A stretch of DNA of 40,214 nucleotides from a virus, in IMG/VR virus record IMGVR_UViG_3300009159_000131, positions 1-40,214 of that record, one strand, 5' to 3'. The first letter of the stretch is position 1. Each line of letters opens with the position of its first letter. Position numbers and translations under genes: made by a program. The notes beneath the pieces were generated by a model. The model did no database searches and was not told where the DNA came from. It saw only the letters and a list, made by a program, of their open reading frames with translations. Positions 1,735 to 38,871 of this stretch are shown here, one piece after another.

Positions 1735-3342
1735 TCATTGCTTCACTTTCTTTTTTTTGTTCGTCCACGGAAAAACCTTGTCAACGTTCAAATGCCACTG
1801 GCTCGAAGTCTTATCGGGAGGTCGGTGGGACAGGTCAGTTATGCTTCCCTGAATCCCTGCGTCCTTGCATCGCGCTGACCAAATCTTGACAGCACTTGAA
1901 ATCGGTTGCTCGTTTGAGCCGCATGTGAATAACACGCTTAACCAAATCGAGTCCGCCGTCAAGTTCTTCTTTTTCTTCGGTCTATTTACTAAGCCCTTTT
2001 GTAGCTTCAACGTTCCATCTATTTGTCGGATTGCTCGAACCGAGGTCTTGTGTGAATGACCGCATCCTGGGCACCTGATTCCGCGCGTACGCCACACCGA
2101 ACACTTGGGGCAACATATACCCTCGATCTCTTCGGGCTTCTCTGCTGACTTGATTTGCTCGATCCTTTCGCGTGCTATGGATACGTTTGTGTCTCCCAGC
2201 TTCCAATGACGTTCCATGTTTGGCGACCCATGGCGCCAATAGTCGCCTCCGTGTGATTGCCATATCTTGAAATCATATCCGGCCTGAAATCGCTGAATGC
2301 GTCCAACGCTTTGCAGGTACGTTGCAATGCCTCCAAACACTGTCGCACCGATGCCGTGATAAATCCAAGGCATGTCAATTGCTTCTCGGAGAACAAATCG
2401 ATTCATCAAAACTTTGATCTCGCCCGATTCGCTCATCTGTAAAATCTGTCGGCGAGTCTCTGGCGTCGTGTCGTACCGCTCCAAGTTGATGGCTCCGGTA
2501 CTTGTTCGAACTGGTAGCAAGCATTCCTTGCCGTCGAGGTGGGCAACTGGCACGCCATGCTTTGCCCATTGTTCCGCGAACCACTTGGACCCTTCAAGCG
2601 ATGGCGCAAACAACAACGCGGGCCGAGAGTCTGGATTGAACTTGCGCCAGTAGCTGTATGCGTCTCCGATAATTGCTGTAGCTCTCTCCTGAACCTTCCC
2701 CGGTGAAAACTCTCCGTCTGCATTCTTGGCTAGTCCGGCACAATCGATCTCGCTTGGCGAGTACACTCGCACCGGCAAGTGGGCATTGACCTTCCGACAC
2801 TCCTGATAGCCTCCAAATGACACCAGCTTTTCGTAGAACAATCCGCAGCCAACGGGCGTTGCAGAGAATCCAAGAATCGTCGCCCCAGTCTCGTAATGGC
2901 CCTTAAGTTCGACGTTGCCGGATACCCCTCCAAACGTGATAGCCCTAGCCTTGCCCTCGACTTGGTTGTGGGCCTCATCGAACACAACGAGCGAAGGCGT
3001 CCCGATGTCCCACTCACCCTTGTTGACTGCCCGCGAGAACACGCTGTCCGTCATGCAAATCTGGATCGGCTTTGTGAAGTCTGGTTCTACCCCTGCGACC
3101 TGGACACCGTGCTCGATTCCCTGGGCGTTAAACACGTCGGAAAGCTGTTCTCGCAGCATAGATCGGTGCAAGTATATTTTGACCGTCCCACCGTTGGCGA
3201 CTTCTTCTTGAGCAAGCTGGACCATCATGCGAGACTTTCCACTGCCGCATGGTCCGGTTGCAAGAATCGTTTTTGCGCCTTGGATACGGGCAAGCTTTAA
3301 GTCTTGCTTGCCTCGTTCTTGGTGGGGCCAGTTAGCACTCAC
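1735..3342 (-). CDS. DEAD/DEAH-box superfamily 2 helicase with zinc ribbon
   Basis: An ATP-driven nucleic-acid helicase or translocase of 535 residues. Motif I G-P-C-G-S-G-K-S lies at 30-37, motif II D-E-A-H at 122-125, motif III S-A-T-P at 160-163 and motif VI Q-S-V-G-R-I-Q-R at about 344-351, so both RecA-like domains are complete. A C-x2-C...C-x2-C zinc ribbon follows at about 411-427, and the C-terminus is basic and ends in a lysine run. The start is GTG, overlapping the ParB-like gene's stop as GTGA. With the ParB-like and ERF genes upstream it probably serves replication or recombination of phage DNA. The exact substrate is unknown. Confidence 0.9.
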   Translation of the reverse strand: MSANWPHQERGKQDLKLARIQGAKTILATGPCGSGKSRMMVQLAQEEVANGGTVKIYLHRSMLREQLSDVFNAQGIEHGVQVAGVEPDFTKPIQICMTDSVFSRAVNKGEWDIGTPSLVVFDEAHNQVEGKARAITFGGVSGNVELKGHYETGATILGFSATPVGCGLFYEKLVSFGGYQECRKVNAHLPVRVYSPSEIDCAGLAKNADGEFSPGKVQERATAIIGDAYSYWRKFNPDSRPALLFAPSLEGSKWFAEQWAKHGVPVAHLDGKECLLPVRTSTGAINLERYDTTPETRRQILQMSESGEIKVLMNRFVLREAIDMPWIYHGIGATVFGGIATYLQSVGRIQRFQAGYDFKIWQSHGGDYWRHGSPNMERHWKLGDTNVSIARERIEQIKSAEKPEEIEGICCPKCSVWRTRGIRCPGCGHSHKTSVRAIRQIDGTLKLQKGLVNRPKKKKNLTADSIWLSVLFTCGSNEQPISSAVKIWSARCKDAGIQGSITDLSHRPPDKTSSQWHLNVDKVFPWTNKKKKVKQ

Positions 3343-4247
3343 TTCGTTGCCGCCAACCTCGCAGAAAACGCATCAAGCAATTCTCGGAAGTCCGCATAGA
3401 GTCCAGCCGCTTCGACCTCGCGTACAAGCTTCCCGAGAGCTGTTTCAATCTTGCTCTTGTCGATCTTATCGGCATTGCTCACCTGAGCAATGTTCTCAAT
3501 CTGATCGGCTTGGCAATTCAGACAAACCCTACCGCCGCTGTCACTTAGCGCCCAATCTCCTCCACCGCATGTTACGCACGTTTCCCCCTTCTCAATGTCG
3601 AGCTCGTCGTTGGGGGTGTCTTGGGCCTTGGATGGCTTATTTGGCGGCTTGTCGGAGTCCTTAGACTTCGAAACCTTAACCTTCTTCGGAACGCCGACGG
3701 AAGGCTCTACGATCTCTTGAAGCTTTGGTTGCTCTACCGCCTTCTTTGGCTTGGTCTCTTTCTTGGGCTGCACTGTGTGATTGTAAATCGAAGTCACGTG
3801 AACTCCGATGATCTCGGCAATCGCCTTGCGGCTGAAGCCCTCGAACGCAGCTTCCGCAAGGGCAACGGCCTTCTTGATGTCCGCTTTCGTTCGCCTCAGT
3901 CCGTGCGTTTGATTTGCCCCGCAAGCCTCTCGAACTGCCTCTTCCATCGTTCCGACCGATACCGCCACGTTTACCCGCGTCTTGCTGGCTCGAGTCAATG
4001 CCGCGTACCTCGTGAACCCATCGACTAAGTGAAGCTCGCCAAACACTTCAACGCATCGAAGCGGTGGTAGCTCTTTGCCCGACTTGATGACCTGGAAGTA
4101 TTCTTCTACCGTCGCCTCGCTCATGCTTTCCCGGCATTGAAGCTTTGGGTCAATCACGATCAGCTCGCGGTCAACAACTCGGTTCTTGATAGCTGCTTTC
4201 TTGGGCGCGGCTGCTGGTTTGGCCTTCAATCGTTCTGCAATTGTCAT
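3339..4247 (-). CDS. ParB/Srx-fold DNA-binding protein with zinc finger
   Basis: The N-terminal half is a ParB N-terminal-like domain: L-V-D-G-F-T-R-Y-A-A-L at 74-84 matches the D-G-x-x-R core, and A-N-Q-T-H-G-L-R-R-T-K-A-D at 111-123 matches the conserved stretch of ParB-like phage proteins. A helix-turn-helix follows at about 138-157, then a lysine/proline-rich linker, then a zinc finger with C-x2-C at 224-227 and 242-245. The fold can bind or hydrolyse nucleotides and bind DNA. In phages such proteins are linked to partition, transcription control or nuclease activity. No ParA partner is seen, so plasmid-style partition is unlikely within this window. It lies between the ERF and helicase genes. 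Confidence 0.82.
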   Translation of the reverse strand: MTIAERLKAKPAAAPKKAAIKNRVVDRELIVIDPKLQCRESMSEATVEEYFQVIKSGKELPPLRCVEVFGELHLVDGFTRYAALTRASKTRVNVAVSVGTMEEAVREACGANQTHGLRRTKADIKKAVALAEAAFEGFSRKAIAEIIGVHVTSIYNHTVQPKKETKPKKAVEQPKLQEIVEPSVGVPKKVKVSKSKDSDKPPNKPSKAQDTPNDELDIEKGETCVTCGGGDWALSDSGGRVCLNCQADQIENIAQVSNADKIDKSKIETALGKLVREVEAAGLYADFRELLDAFSARLAATK

Positions 4248-5171: not shown

Positions 5172-5207
5172 CGGAATCTCCAAAAAAGTGTGTTGAACCT
5201 ACCTACC

Positions 5208-5238
5208 ACCTAAGCCCGAAAGCTCGGTTTCCATTCTA
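5208..5238 (-). promoter_or_regulatory. promoter module A (TAGAAT, 12 bases, TTCGGGCTTAGGT)
   Basis: On the minus strand TAGAAT (5238-5233) is followed after exactly 12 bases by TTCGGGCTTAGGT (5220-5208), then a G/T-rich GGTAGGTAGGTT leader and the ERF gene. The same 31-bp layout recurs six times in the window, plus one degenerate copy. The hexamer resembles a bacterial -10 box. No -35 at 17 bases is recognisable here, because that stretch is filled by palindrome P1. Confidence 0.7.
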
Positions 5239-5266
5239 AAAAGAATCGACGGTCAAATCTTTTTTT
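5238..5266 (-). terminator. palindrome P1, probable terminator
   Basis: This is an imperfect copy of the repeated palindrome (one mismatch and one G-U pair in the arms), flanked by A and T runs. It lies about 35 bases after the stop of the RecE-like exonuclease gene. In RNA it makes a hairpin followed by a U tract, as in a Rho-independent terminator. It touches the -10-like box of module A, so it could also be an operator. Confidence 0.6.
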
Positions 5267-5301
5267 AGTCGTCCGCCAACGAAATCGTTGGGCTTACGCG
5301 A

Positions 5302-10626: not shown

Positions 10627-10666
10627 CGTCCTGTTTCCCTGTTAAAGTGTTTGGAACCTACCTACC

Positions 10667-10697
10667 ACCTACGGGTAAACAGTTGATTCATGGTTAA
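10667..10697 (-). promoter_or_regulatory. degenerate promoter module D
   Basis: At the place expected for a module the minus strand reads TTTACCCGTAGGT, matching 8 of 13 positions of the box, with TTAACC 12 bases ahead. It is continued by GGTAGGTAGGTT, the same leader as module A. It precedes the 303-residue gene. Confidence 0.4.
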
Positions 10698-12084: not shown

Positions 12085-12115
12085 ACCTAAGCCCGAAAAC
12101 TTGCCAGACGTTCTT
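12085..12115 (-). promoter_or_regulatory. promoter module E (AAGAAC, 12 bases, TTCGGGCTTAGGT)
   Basis: The box at 12097-12085 is exact; AAGAAC at 12115-12110 is at the fixed 12-base distance. It overlaps the last codon of the AAA+ gene and precedes the truncated helicase by 17 bases. Confidence 0.68.
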
Positions 12116-13610
12116 ACGCCTTTTGAAACCTTCGGCCCGTTGCCGCCTTGCTGGCCTCTGGCTTGGTGCGTTGGTAAGTTCCTGGGTAGCTTGCCGATAG
12201 GAAACGTCCCTCGGCTCCTGCTCGCAACTTTTCGATTGAGTCCGCAGCATGCTTCGATACTGGGACGATGTACTCGGCGGCTTCGCTTGGCTCGATCTCA
12301 AGATTGTGGGCAAACTCGCAACACGTTTCGATCTCTGCCCCTGTCCACTCGTTCGCGTGGAGGGCCTTGGTTTGCTCGATCGTCAATCTAAACTTTTCTC
12401 GATAGATTTTCCAAATCTCGTTTCGTTCCTCCAAGTCGGGCAAGTCAAAGAACCATGTTCCGAGCTTGAATCGACGCTTGAGTTCGGGAGGCAAGACGGA
12501 CAAAGAATTGCAGGTCGCAATCCAAAGTGTCTTGCCACCGCTTACCGCGTTGATGACCTTCAGGGCTTCTCGTATCTGTTGCTCACTTTGACCAACTAGC
12601 GAACCCTTGGCTGCTCCGAGGTCAAGCTGAATTGTCGGAATGCTTTGATCGCTTCCGCACGCTTTGGCTGCTGCCGACTTCGAAGCGCCGGGAGGTCCGA
12701 CCAGAATACAGCCCGTCGCCCGATTGTCCTGCATCCATGAAAGCAGAGTTCCTACTTGGTCCTGGCTTGTTCCGCTCATGTCGGTACCCGCAGCACCAAG
12801 GGCCTTCTCGATCTCGTCGATAAACACAATCGCGTTAATGTTGCTCTTGCCTGCGATAACCTGTGCGATGAACTTCTTGAACTGAGGAATCCCGCCGATC
12901 TTGTCCATGCTGTTGGACCCCGAAACAACTTGGAGAGCCGGAGTCTCGTTGATCTTTTTTTCCTTCGACTCCCAAAGGCCACCCATTGAAAGACCGTGCT
13001 TGTCGATTGCAAGGCTTGCAAGGTTCTCCGCTGCGAACGCTGTGACGCCAAGAGCCGCACATCCTGCCGCGTCTCGCACGTCTTGGCTTGCTTCGATCTC
13101 AGCCGCATCGCAAACGCTTCCGATGACTTGCGATAGTTGCTTGGAGTCTGGCAGTGGCTCGATGATGGCGATTACGTCTTGCTGCAATTCGACTGGCAAC
13201 CGACCGCCCGAGCCCATCAAGACCAACATTTTTTGGCCGCTCTTGAAAATGTCGCGGAGGTTCCAGATCGCTTGAACGACCGTGAATTGATCCAAGAATT
13301 GGTGTGCGTTGTGGATCAGAATTACCATCGGGAGCGACTGATCGACTTTTGCCAAATCGACCAACAGTTCCAAGGGGTTGCCAACGTACTCGTCTTGCCC
13401 CTTTAGATTACCGGTGGAAGTCTTGGGGGTGAAAACGTACCATCCTCGAACGCAGTCCCAAGCAACGATGTTCACTTGCTCTTGGAATTTTGCCGTGGCA
13501 AACTCCGCAACAATAGCTTGATTTGTCGCCCCTGGATCGCTCGTCTCGAACGACACCAACGGAACCCCAACCCGATATGCTTTGACCAGCTTTGCGTAGA
13601 CCGACAACAT
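12114..13610 (-). CDS. Ycf46-like AAA+ ATPase with permuted core (Walker B before Walker A)
   Basis: The N-terminal 200 residues resemble the degenerate ATPase domain of Ycf46 proteins (V-I-L-I-H-N-A-H-Q-F-L-D at 96-107; L-P-V-E-L-Q-Q-D-V near 138-146). The C-terminal half is an AAA+ domain in unusual order: Walker B I-V-F-I-D-E-I-E-K-A at 261-270, then L-L-S-W-M-Q-D-N, then Walker A G-P-P-G-A-S-K-S at 305-312, then S-L-V-G-Q-S-E at 337-343, sensor 1 W-I-A-T-C-N at 363-368, and E-L-K-R-R-F at 376-381 as possible arginine fingers. In standard AAA+ proteins Walker B follows Walker A. All catalytic residues are present, so it should be active. The role is unknown; such ATPases remodel or load other proteins. 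Module F precedes it. Confidence 0.88.
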   Translation of the reverse strand: MLSVYAKLVKAYRVGVPLVSFETSDPGATNQAIVAEFATAKFQEQVNIVAWDCVRGWYVFTPKTSTGNLKGQDEYVGNPLELLVDLAKVDQSLPMVILIHNAHQFLDQFTVVQAIWNLRDIFKSGQKMLVLMGSGGRLPVELQQDVIAIIEPLPDSKQLSQVIGSVCDAAEIEASQDVRDAAGCAALGVTAFAAENLASLAIDKHGLSMGGLWESKEKKINETPALQVVSGSNSMDKIGGIPQFKKFIAQVIAGKSNINAIVFIDEIEKALGAAGTDMSGTSQDQVGTLLSWMQDNRATGCILVGPPGASKSAAAKACGSDQSIPTIQLDLGAAKGSLVGQSEQQIREALKVINAVSGGKTLWIATCNSLSVLPPELKRRFKLGTWFFDLPDLEERNEIWKIYREKFRLTIEQTKALHANEWTGAEIETCCEFAHNLEIEPSEAAEYIVPVSKHAADSIEKLRAGAEGRFLSASYPGTYQRTKPEASKAATGRRFQKA

Positions 13611-13745: not shown

Positions 13746-13772
13746 AAAAAAGAATCGACGGTCGATTCTTTT
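13746..13772 (-). terminator. palindrome P2, probable bidirectional terminator
   Basis: Two perfect 12-base arms (AAAAGAATCGAC and complement) flank a single G. The A run and T run at the ends make a hairpin with a U tract in either direction. It lies about 25 bases after the SNase-like gene's stop and before promoter module F. Confidence 0.65.
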
Positions 13773-13796
13773 AGGACCCGACCACCAACGAAAACA

Positions 13797-14222
13797 CTAG
13801 GTTTTTGGAATTATCAAATTTGCGTTTTCTACAACTGCCGAAAGTTCCGCATCGGTCCAATATTGTCGAGCTGATTTTCCGTCGTATCGCTTTGCAAGTC
13901 CCATCCGAATCAGATACTCGGATAGTGATTGATCTGGATGTTCGCGGTCGATGAACGTCCCAACGCTTCGACCGTACATGTCGAGGTCCTTTGACAGCCA
14001 TCGCAAACGGTACTTGGTTTGGCAAATTGGAGTCAGCCAAAGTTCAACGACTTTGGCGACTAACTTTCCTGCGCTTGTATTTTTCTCTGGCGCGTCAACG
14101 CCTTCTAATCGGGTTGTGATTCCTTGGGTCGTTCTCCACCCACGGTCAAGAATTAGCTTCTGCGTGTCGCCGTCAACGACTTCGAACGATAGGACAGGGC
14201 AGTCAAAGGTTTCTATACGCAT
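13797..14222 (-). CDS. SNase-like (thermonuclease-family) nuclease
   Basis: A 141-residue protein with the staphylococcal nuclease pattern: V-D-G-D-T at 16-20, R-L-E-G-V-D-A-P-E at 38-46 and D-M-Y-G-R at 81-85, then L-I-R-M-G-L-A near 104-110. These supply the calcium-binding Asp residues, the two catalytic Arg and the general-base Glu of the family, so phosphodiester cleavage of DNA or RNA is expected. No signal peptide is seen, so it acts in the cytoplasm, for example in host DNA breakdown. It overlaps the zinc-protein gene by ten bases. Confidence 0.85.
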   Translation of the reverse strand: MRIETFDCPVLSFEVVDGDTQKLILDRGWRTTQGITTRLEGVDAPEKNTSAGKLVAKVVELWLTPICQTKYRLRWLSKDLDMYGRSVGTFIDREHPDQSLSEYLIRMGLAKRYDGKSARQYWTDAELSAVVENANLIIPKT

Positions 14223-14503
14223 TGTTTGGCTTCCGTTTCAAAACGACCGTAAATTGAACCAGCTTGATCCGGTTCGTTGCTGTTCGTGCATGCGTGCCGA
14301 TGGTCGCTCGCCTTAGGACATCGCTTGTTCCCGCAAGTCGGGCAAACGATCATCGTAGACAGGCTCAGGGCCGCGTTTGGGAACATTGGGGATCGGATAT
14401 CGTGTTCCTTGATGCAAGCGTGGCAAACGCACTCTGGAGGTGGTTTAGAGGGGTCTGCAAACTCCCGAGCCATCCTCAAGTTTTCCGCAGCTAGTCTATC
14501 CAT
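14213..14503 (-). CDS. hypothetical zinc-binding protein, 96 aa
   Basis: Cysteines and histidines are clustered as C-x-C-H-A-C near 25-30, C-P-T-C near 54-57 and C-P-K-A-S-D-H-R-H-A-C near 62-72, enough for one or two zinc sites. The tail E-P-D-Q-A-G-S-I-Y recalls small zinc proteins of unknown function in other phages. ATG 14503 follows GGAG. It is the first gene of the leftward early block, facing the plus-strand promoter across about 90 bases. Confidence 0.72.
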   Translation of the reverse strand: MDRLAAENLRMAREFADPSKPPPECVCHACIKEHDIRSPMFPNAALSLSTMIVCPTCGNKRCPKASDHRHACTNSNEPDQAGSIYGRFETEAKQCV

Positions 14504-14539
14504 TTAATTCTCCGTTCAGTCCATACCGCCCCTTTATCC

Positions 14540-14555
14540 TTGGATGCCCATCCAA
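14540..14555. promoter_or_regulatory. palindrome TTGGATGCCCATCCAA, possible operator
   Basis: A perfect 7-base inverted repeat with a 2-base centre lies in the divergent gap between the leftward early block and the rightward structured-RNA block. Its size and place suit a dimeric repressor or activator site controlling one or both. No cognate regulator gene is recognised in the window. Confidence 0.4.
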
Positions 14556-14589
14556 CGCGAGACGCTCAAAGAAATCTTATCCTCCGCTC

Positions 14590-14618
14590 TAGACTTCATC
14601 AAATGAGTTCTCTAAAAT
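14590..14618 (+). promoter_or_regulatory. plus-strand promoter, TAGACT - 17 - TAAAAT
   Basis: A -35-like TAGACT (14590-14595) and a -10-like TAAAAT (14613-14618) are 17 bases apart, the ideal sigma-70 spacing. Predicted transcription starts near 14625, exactly where the first hairpin of the RNA candidate begins. Confidence 0.5.
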
Positions 14619-14624
14619 AATTGG

Positions 14625-15095
14625 CGTCGATGGAGTAGAAACCGTTGACGACAATAGTTCCACAAAACAATCATATTAGAGCCCAGGTTTCTGGAGTTCT
14701 TGGTAATGCGACGTGGAACCGTGTTGTCAAGATTTCTACCTCCGGAAACCTGGGCTTTCTTCGTTTGCGGGGCGAGTCAAGTACTCAGCCCCTATCTGGC
14801 AAAATGGTTAAACGGTCATGCTACCAACCGAATTAGGACAACGAAGGCATGGCGAACAAAGTCCGAAATCTACCGCACGCCGGGGGTAGTGCTTTTCTCA
14901 TTCGAGAACTGAACGATTGGCGCAACGCGGACGGGGTGGATACCCCTAGACGGCGATTGAAGTAATTCGATCAAAGAGATTTTGGTGCCGAGGGACCGTT
15001 GAAAGGCGGGGATGCTGGCAGGTTGACTACGGAAAGGACTAAGAAACATTCGTTCCGAGTCTGGTTTTTTAAGCGGAGGTACCAGGGTTTTTTGC
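14625..15095 (+). ncRNA. candidate large structured RNA, about 470 nt
   Basis: This stretch has no convincing gene. On the plus strand it folds locally into a series of hairpins: 14626-14649 (8 pairs, two G-U); 14680-14696 with 14740-14756 (17 pairs, one G-U, with further pairing in the 43-base loop); 14769-14792 (9 pairs, one bulge); 14806-14829; 14933-14946 (GGGGT/ACCCC); 14955-14972 (7 pairs closed by the GNRA-type loop GTAA). It ends with CTGGT/ACCAG at about 15061-15087 followed by GGGTTTTTT, a terminator-like end. A promoter lies just upstream. No known RNA class is recognised. A 69-codon plus-strand frame (14707-14912) runs through it and is the main alternative. Confidence 0.5.
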
Positions 15096-15140
15096 GCTCG
15101 TAAATAACGAAAGACCCTTTTGAGGAAGTGAGACGGACAA

Positions 15141-15488
15141 ATGCCAAAAGATGACTGGGGACGTGCAAGACGCAAACAAGCTGGAGAACGCGAAAGGTCG
15201 AGACTAGATTTTGAGGATCGCGAACAACAGCGAGCGCTTTCCATGGCTCAACGACAAAACGCCAAACGTACAACGATAAGTTCGAACGCTTGGGATAATC
15301 TCGATGAGGTTCAAGACACCATCGCATTTTACGGAATGACGATGACCGTCTACGGCCTACGACTAGGAGAGGTTTCGGAATGGCAGTACCGCAACGACAA
15401 GGAAGAAATCATCCTGCGATATTGGCCGACAACCAACAACGCAAAGGCCCACACCAGAAACGCACCAAAGGTACGCACACGCGGATAG
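15141..15488 (+). CDS. hypothetical basic protein, 115 aa, plus strand
   Basis: It begins M-P-K-D-D-W-G-R-A-R-R-K and has a strongly charged N-terminal helix, a central segment (I-A-F-Y-G-M-T-M-T-V-Y-G-L-R-L) and a basic tail. No family is recognised. A GGA five bases before the ATG and GAGGA farther upstream are weak binding sites. It is one of only two convincing plus-strand genes and lies directly downstream of the structured-RNA candidate, so it may act with it. RNA binding is possible from charge but is inference. Confidence 0.6.
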   Translation: MPKDDWGRARRKQAGERERSRLDFEDREQQRALSMAQRQNAKRTTISSNAWDNLDEVQDTIAFYGMTMTVYGLRLGEVSEWQYRNDKEEIILRYWPTTNNAKAHTRNAPKVRTRG

Positions 15489-15497
15489 CGAGACTCA

Positions 15498-15725
15498 ATG
15501 GATATGGCAATAGACTTAAACTTCACGCCACAAAAACGAATTGGCAATCGATATCGAACTCTTTGTGACCATTCTTTGCAGACTCAAAAGCAATGCGAGT
15601 ACTGCGGCTCCAAAGGAAATTTGACGGCTGTTTTGCATCCAGGCGTTTTAATGGAAGATGCAACGATGGAAACGATTTGCGTTACCTGTCCCGGATGCCT
15701 AAAAGACCATCTGTCGGCCAAATAA
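15498..15725 (+). CDS. hypothetical zinc-ribbon protein, 75 aa, plus strand
   Basis: C-E-Y-C near residue 34 and C-V-T-C-P-G-C near residue 61 form two cysteine pairs about 25 residues apart, typical of a zinc ribbon or an HNH-like zinc scaffold without the catalytic histidine. It starts nine bases after the previous plus-strand stop and ends just before a strong hairpin terminator, so the two genes form a short operon. Confidence 0.65.
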   Translation: MDMAIDLNFTPQKRIGNRYRTLCDHSLQTQKQCEYCGSKGNLTAVLHPGVLMEDATMETICVTCPGCLKDHLSAK

Positions 15726-15761
15726 AAAACGCCGAAGGCTTTTAAGTTCCTCCGGCGTTTT
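15726..15761. terminator. bidirectional intrinsic terminator
   Basis: AAAACGCCG and CGGCGTTTT form nine pairs, extended inside by AGG/CCT. The A run on one side and T run on the other allow it to stop both the rightward two-gene operon and the leftward late operon that ends at 15807. Confidence 0.75.
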
Positions 15762-15806
15762 CCAGGTCCGTCCATTTCGACTAGGTAATCTTACCAAGTC
15801 CAGAAA

Positions 15807-19766: not shown

Positions 19767-19913
19767 TTTTCAATCTCCGAGGGGTACAAAAACTTTACTA
19801 CGAAACAAATCGATTCCTAACTATGTTCGATTGAATCTTTCCGCACAAGGTTTCAGCCAAAGTTTGCGCACCAGATTTTCAGAAACCCAATGTTTTCATT
19901 GACGGACGCGTTG

Positions 19914-19940
19914 AAAAAGATTCGACCGTCGATTCTTTTT
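19914..19940 (-). terminator. palindrome P3, probable terminator
   Basis: A copy with a single arm mismatch lies 8 bases past the FkbM gene's stop. A and T runs at the ends give a hairpin with a U tract. It separates the glycosylation genes from the envelope-protein genes. Confidence 0.6.
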
Positions 19941-31309: not shown

Positions 31310-31726
31310 CTAACCGCGAATCGATTTCATCATTTCGATCCAAGCCGGAATTGCCGTCACGCTGCTCTTGTAGACCAAAGGCAATTGATCCATCATCACA
31401 CCCTCGGCGTTTGCAATTGGATGTCGCTCGACACAATGAATCGCATCGTCTCCCGACATTGGCAAGCAAGTTGCCGGCACGATATCGATCTCTTCCAAGT
31501 CAGGAATTCGGTTAAGTGTTCGGAACATCCAAACCGCTTCGTCCTCAGTTTCGGCACAAACCAAGCTTGTAACGTCTAGGTGTTTTGCCACCCACCAACC
31601 ATCGACTGTCGCCTTGGTTTCTGGCTCGGTTTGTTGGGTAGATTCTGACCCAAAAAGAATAGACGGTCTATTCTTTTCTTCTTCCAAGTCCTGTGTTTTC
31701 ATTGGTGCGTCATTTTCGGAACTCAT
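31310..31726 (-). CDS. hypothetical tail-region protein containing palindrome P4, 138 aa
   Basis: The N-terminal 35 residues are acidic and low in structure. They include K-N-R-P-S-I-L-F, encoded by palindrome P4. The rest is a compact domain (V-D-G-W-W-V-A-K-H-L near 41-50, then W-M-F-R-T-L-N-R-I-P-D-L). No family is recognised. It begins nine bases past the upstream stop, between the tail terminator-like gene and the tail tube gene. The hairpin in its 5' coding part may limit transcription or translation. Confidence 0.65.
   Translation of the reverse strand: MSSENDAPMKTQDLEEEKNRPSILFGSESTQQTEPETKATVDGWWVAKHLDVTSLVCAETEDEAVWMFRTLNRIPDLEEIDIVPATCLPMSGDDAIHCVERHPIANAEGVMMDQLPLVYKSSVTAIPAWIEMMKSIRG
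31652..31677. repeat. palindrome P4, inside a coding sequence
   Basis: Arms AAAAGAATAGAC and its exact complement flank one central base. It is the only one of the five copies that lies within a reading frame, at codons 18-26 of the 138-residue gene, about 55 bases past the stop of the previous gene. Confidence 0.7.
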
Positions 31727-38763: not shown

Positions 38764-38845
38764 GATCTGTTATCCTCTAAAGTTTTGGCGAGTAACCACC
38801 GATTAAAAGTTAAAAAACGTGTATTTTCGTTGACGGCCTGATTCG

Positions 38846-38871
38846 AAAAGAATAGACCGTCGATTCTTTTT
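38846..38871 (-). terminator. palindrome P5, probable terminator
   Basis: A copy with one arm mismatch, starting at the TAA stop codon of the protease gene. The T run at its end suits termination between the protease and the decoration/capsid genes. Confidence 0.6.

Follow-up and report, generated by a model that had tools for sequence, protein, structure and literature searches.

A probable small antisense RNA gene at the late/early gene junction of a tailed phage, and a predicted large RNA on the opposite strand in its relatives

The non-coding locus and its neighbours

The window analysed here, which is the whole 40,214-base stretch of an IMG/VR virus record, belongs to a tailed phage as judged from its capsid and tail-tube proteins, and almost all of the phage genes are located on the minus strand. 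Codon scoring detected no gene in any frame of either strand between positions 14504 and 15140, in agreement with a preliminary description of this DNA, which had pointed out a region of about 470 bases without a convincing gene. The frame 14707-14912, named there as a possible coding alternative, obtained a codon score of -0.16, compared with +0.2 to +0.4 for real genes, and is accordingly non-coding by this measure. A search of the region for tRNA and tmRNA returned none, and the Rfam scan that had been proposed as a check, performed at gathering thresholds and at an E-value of 10, gave chance matches only, with no family, GOLLD and ROOL included, at its gathering score. No DNA similarity to the region was observed among named phages, and its only relative at the DNA level is a near-identical contig from sample 3300010885.

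The region contains a sigma70-type promoter on the plus strand (TAGACT-17-TAAAAT, 14590-14618), which matches the consensus at 9 of 12 positions with a 17-nt spacer and corresponds to the well-spaced promoter reported earlier. It is one of only six sites in the 40 kb, both strands counted, that combine 9/12 or more matches with 5/6 or more in the -10 box, and transcription from it would oppose that of the adjacent phage genes. At the RNA locus of the window, the minus strand showed no clear promoter. Elsewhere, two exact copies of GGTGGTAGGTAGGTTC are situated just upstream of minus-strand genes (5195-5210 and 10654-10669, minus strand), and are possibly a promoter element of the phage's own. 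The protein encoded at 3339-4247 (minus strand), which gives weak matches to sigma-70 region 4 and to a zinc ribbon and is kept in relatives, is a candidate phage transcription factor.

Two small plus-strand ORFs follow the region, as had been described. ORF1 (15141-15488, 115 aa, codon score +0.17) possesses a basic N-terminus and has an 11-bp hairpin just 5' of it (15084-15118, plus strand), recognised by helix detection and folding; ORF2 (15498-15725, 75 aa), with a weakly gene-like codon score, contains a CxxC...CxxC pattern. Homologues of ORF1 were sought in viral contigs, named phages, the relatives discussed below and genome contigs, and those of ORF2 in the first three of these sets; both searches led only to the near-identical contig of sample 3300010885, apart from one weak match to ORF2 (E 0.003), whose frame holds no convincing gene. 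Neither protein has a credible homologue, and the suggestion that they act as partners of an RNA gained no evidence. The boundary between ORF2 and the adjoining minus-strand genes is occupied by a bidirectional terminator-like hairpin read from the sequence (AAAACGCCG...CGGCGTTTT, 15726-15762). A palindromic, terminator-like repeat, AAAGAATCGACCGTCGATTCTTTT, is dispersed over the window (5238-5295, 13747-13810, 19877-19940, 31649-31677 and 38813-38871), mostly between gene blocks.

Folding and strand

The proposed small RNA of about 140 nt (14625-14765, plus strand), whose start is placed from the -10 box, would be constructed of a 5' hairpin, a linker and a long terminator-like hairpin. The 5' hairpin (14625-14650) comprises 9 bp, including two G-U and no A-C pairs, and is predicted with a pair probability of 0.99. 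The long hairpin (14678-14758) consists of an outer stem of 19 bp and an inner stem of 13 bp (14698-14710/14720-14732), followed by TTTCTTCGTT, and harbors six G-U and no A-C pairs. Its outer stem contains the 17-pair helix with one G-U that had been singled out previously (14680-14696/14740-14756; extension brings it to 19 pairs and two G-U), and the 7-bp stem closed by GUAA (14955-14972) and the U-run end (T6 at 15065-15070) are likewise present. An interrupted 12-bp hairpin followed by TGGTTTTTT (15025-15070, plus strand), which the terminator scan missed, is a possible second terminator.

Compared with shuffled sequences, the whole region folds with z values of -2.9 (plus strand) and -2.1 (minus strand). 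The segment 14622-14765 reaches a z of -6.0 (-5.8 for the inferred transcript), whereas the 324 nt of 14757-15080 give -0.8 on the plus strand, where 25 of 100 shuffles fold as well, and -0.1 on the minus strand. Therefore, most of the six or more strong hairpins that had been listed are at the level expected by chance, and it is the first two that exceed it. The stretch 14766-15080 (plus strand) can be regarded as non-coding and devoid of significant structure or relatives, a single-sequence model of 14757-15080 (R2) having matched none of 68 loci of related phages.

The strand was read from wobble pairs. When helices were detected strand-blind, with G-U and A-C wobbles treated alike, those of the region showed 14 G-U against one A-C on the plus strand, while the difference between the two elsewhere in the window averaged -0.8 (sd 3.5, maximum +7); the first two hairpins account for 8 versus 0 and the remainder of the region for 6 versus 1. 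This bias indicates an RNA on the plus strand, and the G-U pairs to which the preliminary description had appealed do point out the strand. What had been presented as a large structured RNA is thus supported as a functional plus-strand RNA but not as a large one, since neither significant folding nor homology extends beyond about 14590-14765.

The locus in related phages

A search with the AAA ATPase gene of the window (12114-13610) revealed 70 viral loci, those nearest the window phage matching at 54-58% identity; in genome contigs, only one 22% match and one weak fragment were obtained, which gave no clue to the host. In five of the relatives (L022, L024, L027, L028 and L033), as in the window, the locus is flanked by late genes on one side and by the ATPase on the other. 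L022, L023, L024, L028 and L033 contain a stretch of 22 nt that matches window 14744-14765 (20 of 22 bases identical, or 20 of 23 in L022, L023 and L028); the match lies 1.5-2.5 kb upstream of the ATPase, between it and the late genes, and its orientation with respect to the genes is that seen in the window. It forms part of a conserved non-coding locus of about 500 nt shared by L004, L005, L022-L025, L027, L028 and L033, which was also recognised in L104 and in record G024.

Nine or ten related phages keep the small-RNA unit at this place, and nine copies are complete. Every one of the nine has TTG-type and TA(C/A)AAT boxes separated by 16-17 nt on the strand opposite the genes, and the window promoter shares their place, orientation and spacing; the boxes are nearly invariant across the relatives and the spacers diverge. 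Downstream, the predicted fold of the relatives' 59-67-nt small RNA (z -3.6 to -5.0) begins with a small hairpin and closes with a terminator hairpin. The terminator stem displays compensatory changes around a constant GAAA loop in six relatives, with a covariation score, resting on four distinct sequences, that none of 500 shuffles reached, and its wobbles read as G-U on the small-RNA strand but not on the other. Seven further contigs containing a hairpin-half pattern were judged chance occurrences, with neither the promoter nor the ATPase nearby.

On the gene strand of the same locus, an RNA of about 480 nt is predicted in the relatives, running from TGGCGTTA, a motif with further copies upstream of other genes, and the small RNA lies opposite its 5' end. 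Copies were located at L033:6262-6775, L022:6095-6618, L027:6193-6722 and L004:2409-2920 (plus strand) and at L104:1840-2366 and L114:1-509 (minus strand), and ten phages carry it when the partial copy of L025 is included. The alignment comprises 105 predicted pairs, and 40 of the 79 pairs in the core change on both sides, where shuffles give 21.0 (sd 2.7) and sliding of the partners gives 5-8. Among the pairs of the 3' core (A5) that are predicted for either strand, G-U outnumber A-C by 11 to 2, favouring the gene strand. No Rfam family matched this RNA, which is undescribed. The motif CTTTAC...TCGGTGGCGTTA, probably a phage-specific (ECF-like) promoter, recurs 5' of genes in L022 (plus strand, 6103, 6680, 9477, 10454, 11751, 12825 and 16544), occurs also in L004, L027 and L033, and is absent from the window, where the relatives' promoter motif TGGCGTTA gave chance-level matches only.

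A profile of the whole locus of the relatives gave three colinear matches to the window, namely the terminator hairpin, the promoter and the 3' GGATAAAG motif (14562-14515). This chain scored 16.8, with a maximum of 9.1 among 600 shuffles, none of which reached it, and the window locus is therefore homologous to that of the relatives. The third match identifies 14515-14562 (minus strand) as a remnant (TTGGATGGGCATCCAAGGATAAAGGGGCGG) corresponding to the 3' end of the RNA that the relatives encode on the opposite strand. The core of the large RNA, about 310 nt, is missing in the window between the promoter and this motif, and the large RNA models R1 and R3 matched nothing in the window on either strand, and the hypothesis that the plus strand of the window contains an inverted copy of the large RNA was accordingly rejected. 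A large phage RNA, of the sort that the preliminary description envisaged, is predicted at the same locus of the relatives, on the opposite strand, but its core is missing in the window phage itself. With regard to the small RNA, the window possesses the syntenic sigma70-type promoter, both hairpins and the colinear profile match, with 14744-14765 aligning to the relatives' terminator hairpin in the same orientation. The window version differs in its longer linker and in an enlarged terminator hairpin, where the loop arm is expanded and the T run (TTTCTT) is weak, and the sequence similarity is short (22 nt).

A probable antisense RNA and its alternatives

Considering the host-type promoter that faces the gene strand, a small cis-antisense RNA made by the host polymerase is proposed, and 14590-14765 (plus strand) is probably a small non-coding RNA gene, most likely encoding a cis-antisense regulator, that descended from the antisense RNA of the relatives. 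Host RNA polymerase would read it from the sigma70-type promoter against the neighbouring genes, and most transcripts would be stopped by the second, very stable hairpin; some might run on, and such leaky termination could feed ORF1-ORF2. The small RNA, derived from the 59-67-nt RNA that faces the large RNA at its 5' end, would pair with the opposite-strand transcript of the late/early gene junction and lower its activity or stability. Because the large RNA core is missing in the window phage, the predicted target there is the leader preceding the minus-strand genes, which start at 14503. The same loss argues against the antisense reading, as the opposite-strand RNA that motivates it is gone in the window; the short sequence similarity, the altered hairpin with its weak T run and the failure to find a clear minus-strand promoter at the locus count against it as well.

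An unlikely alternative is that 14620-15080 serves as the leader RNA of an ORF1-ORF2 operon, regulating it by tandem terminators (14678-14758, 15025-15070 and 15084-15118). The common strand, the terminator-like hairpins ahead of the ORF1 ribosome site, the coding appearance of both ORFs and the fact that no other convincing promoter was seen are in line with this proposal, but in the relatives no such ORFs follow the promoter and hairpin, and most of the presumed leader folds at chance level. The latter observation also bears on the earlier idea of one large structured RNA of roughly 450-500 nt, which now appears quite improbable: the non-coding state, the plus-strand wobble bias and a closed multi-helix minimum-energy fold speak for it, yet 14757-15080 has a z of only -0.8, no relative and no Rfam match. 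It is equally improbable that promoter and hairpin serve only as punctuation of the DNA, either as a terminator or as a boundary of the late and early modules, and yield an idle transcript. The position at the module junction and the terminator-like second hairpin suit this explanation; against it, punctuation would require neither a second, 5' hairpin nor a conserved promoter with a terminator 40-60 nt behind it.

The proposed antisense RNA is of a kind already known. The sar RNA of P22 and the OOP RNA of lambda are small phage RNAs transcribed against neighbouring genes, with promoter, stem-loops and terminator close together in a short stretch. The window locus has its own promoter opposing the genes and a short stem-loop RNA with a terminator hairpin, the T run being weak. 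Pairing with an opposite transcript, as in sar and OOP, corresponds in this group to an overlap predicted in the relatives only. Differing from sar (68/69 nt) and OOP (77 nt) (PMC12197685), to which no sequence relation was revealed by Rfam, the RNA would have a structured non-coding leader as its target, in place of the ant or cII mRNA, and no Rfam family covers it. Small phage RNAs encoded opposite early genes control decisions such as lysis versus lysogeny or the level of replication, and few have been described outside model phages; the conservation of this layout over about 55% protein identity implies that it is under selection.

In the relatives, the layout alone resembles RNAI/RNAII of ColE1, with a short antisense RNA opposite the 5' part of a structured RNA of about 480 nt, although there is no evidence of replication priming and no sequence relation, and the core of the RNAII-like partner is gone from the window phage. 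More speculatively, and with considerable doubt, the locus might be an RNAI/RNAII-like control element in which an antisense RNA from a host promoter governs a new, large and strongly covarying RNA heading the early or replication module, the window phage having lost the partner core, enlarged the antisense gene and coupled two new genes to it. The large RNA is similar to GOLLD and ROOL (PMC12286853) in being large, structured and phage-borne, but it is shorter, matches no Rfam family and is absent from the window; undescribed as it is, it represents a more surprising object than the small RNA of the window. Skew profiles disclosed no clear replication origin. The AT skew of the gene strand declines from about +0.18 (window 1-13 kb) to about 0 (14-25 kb), with the drop near the RNA locus, and the GC skew rises downstream of the large RNA in some relatives.
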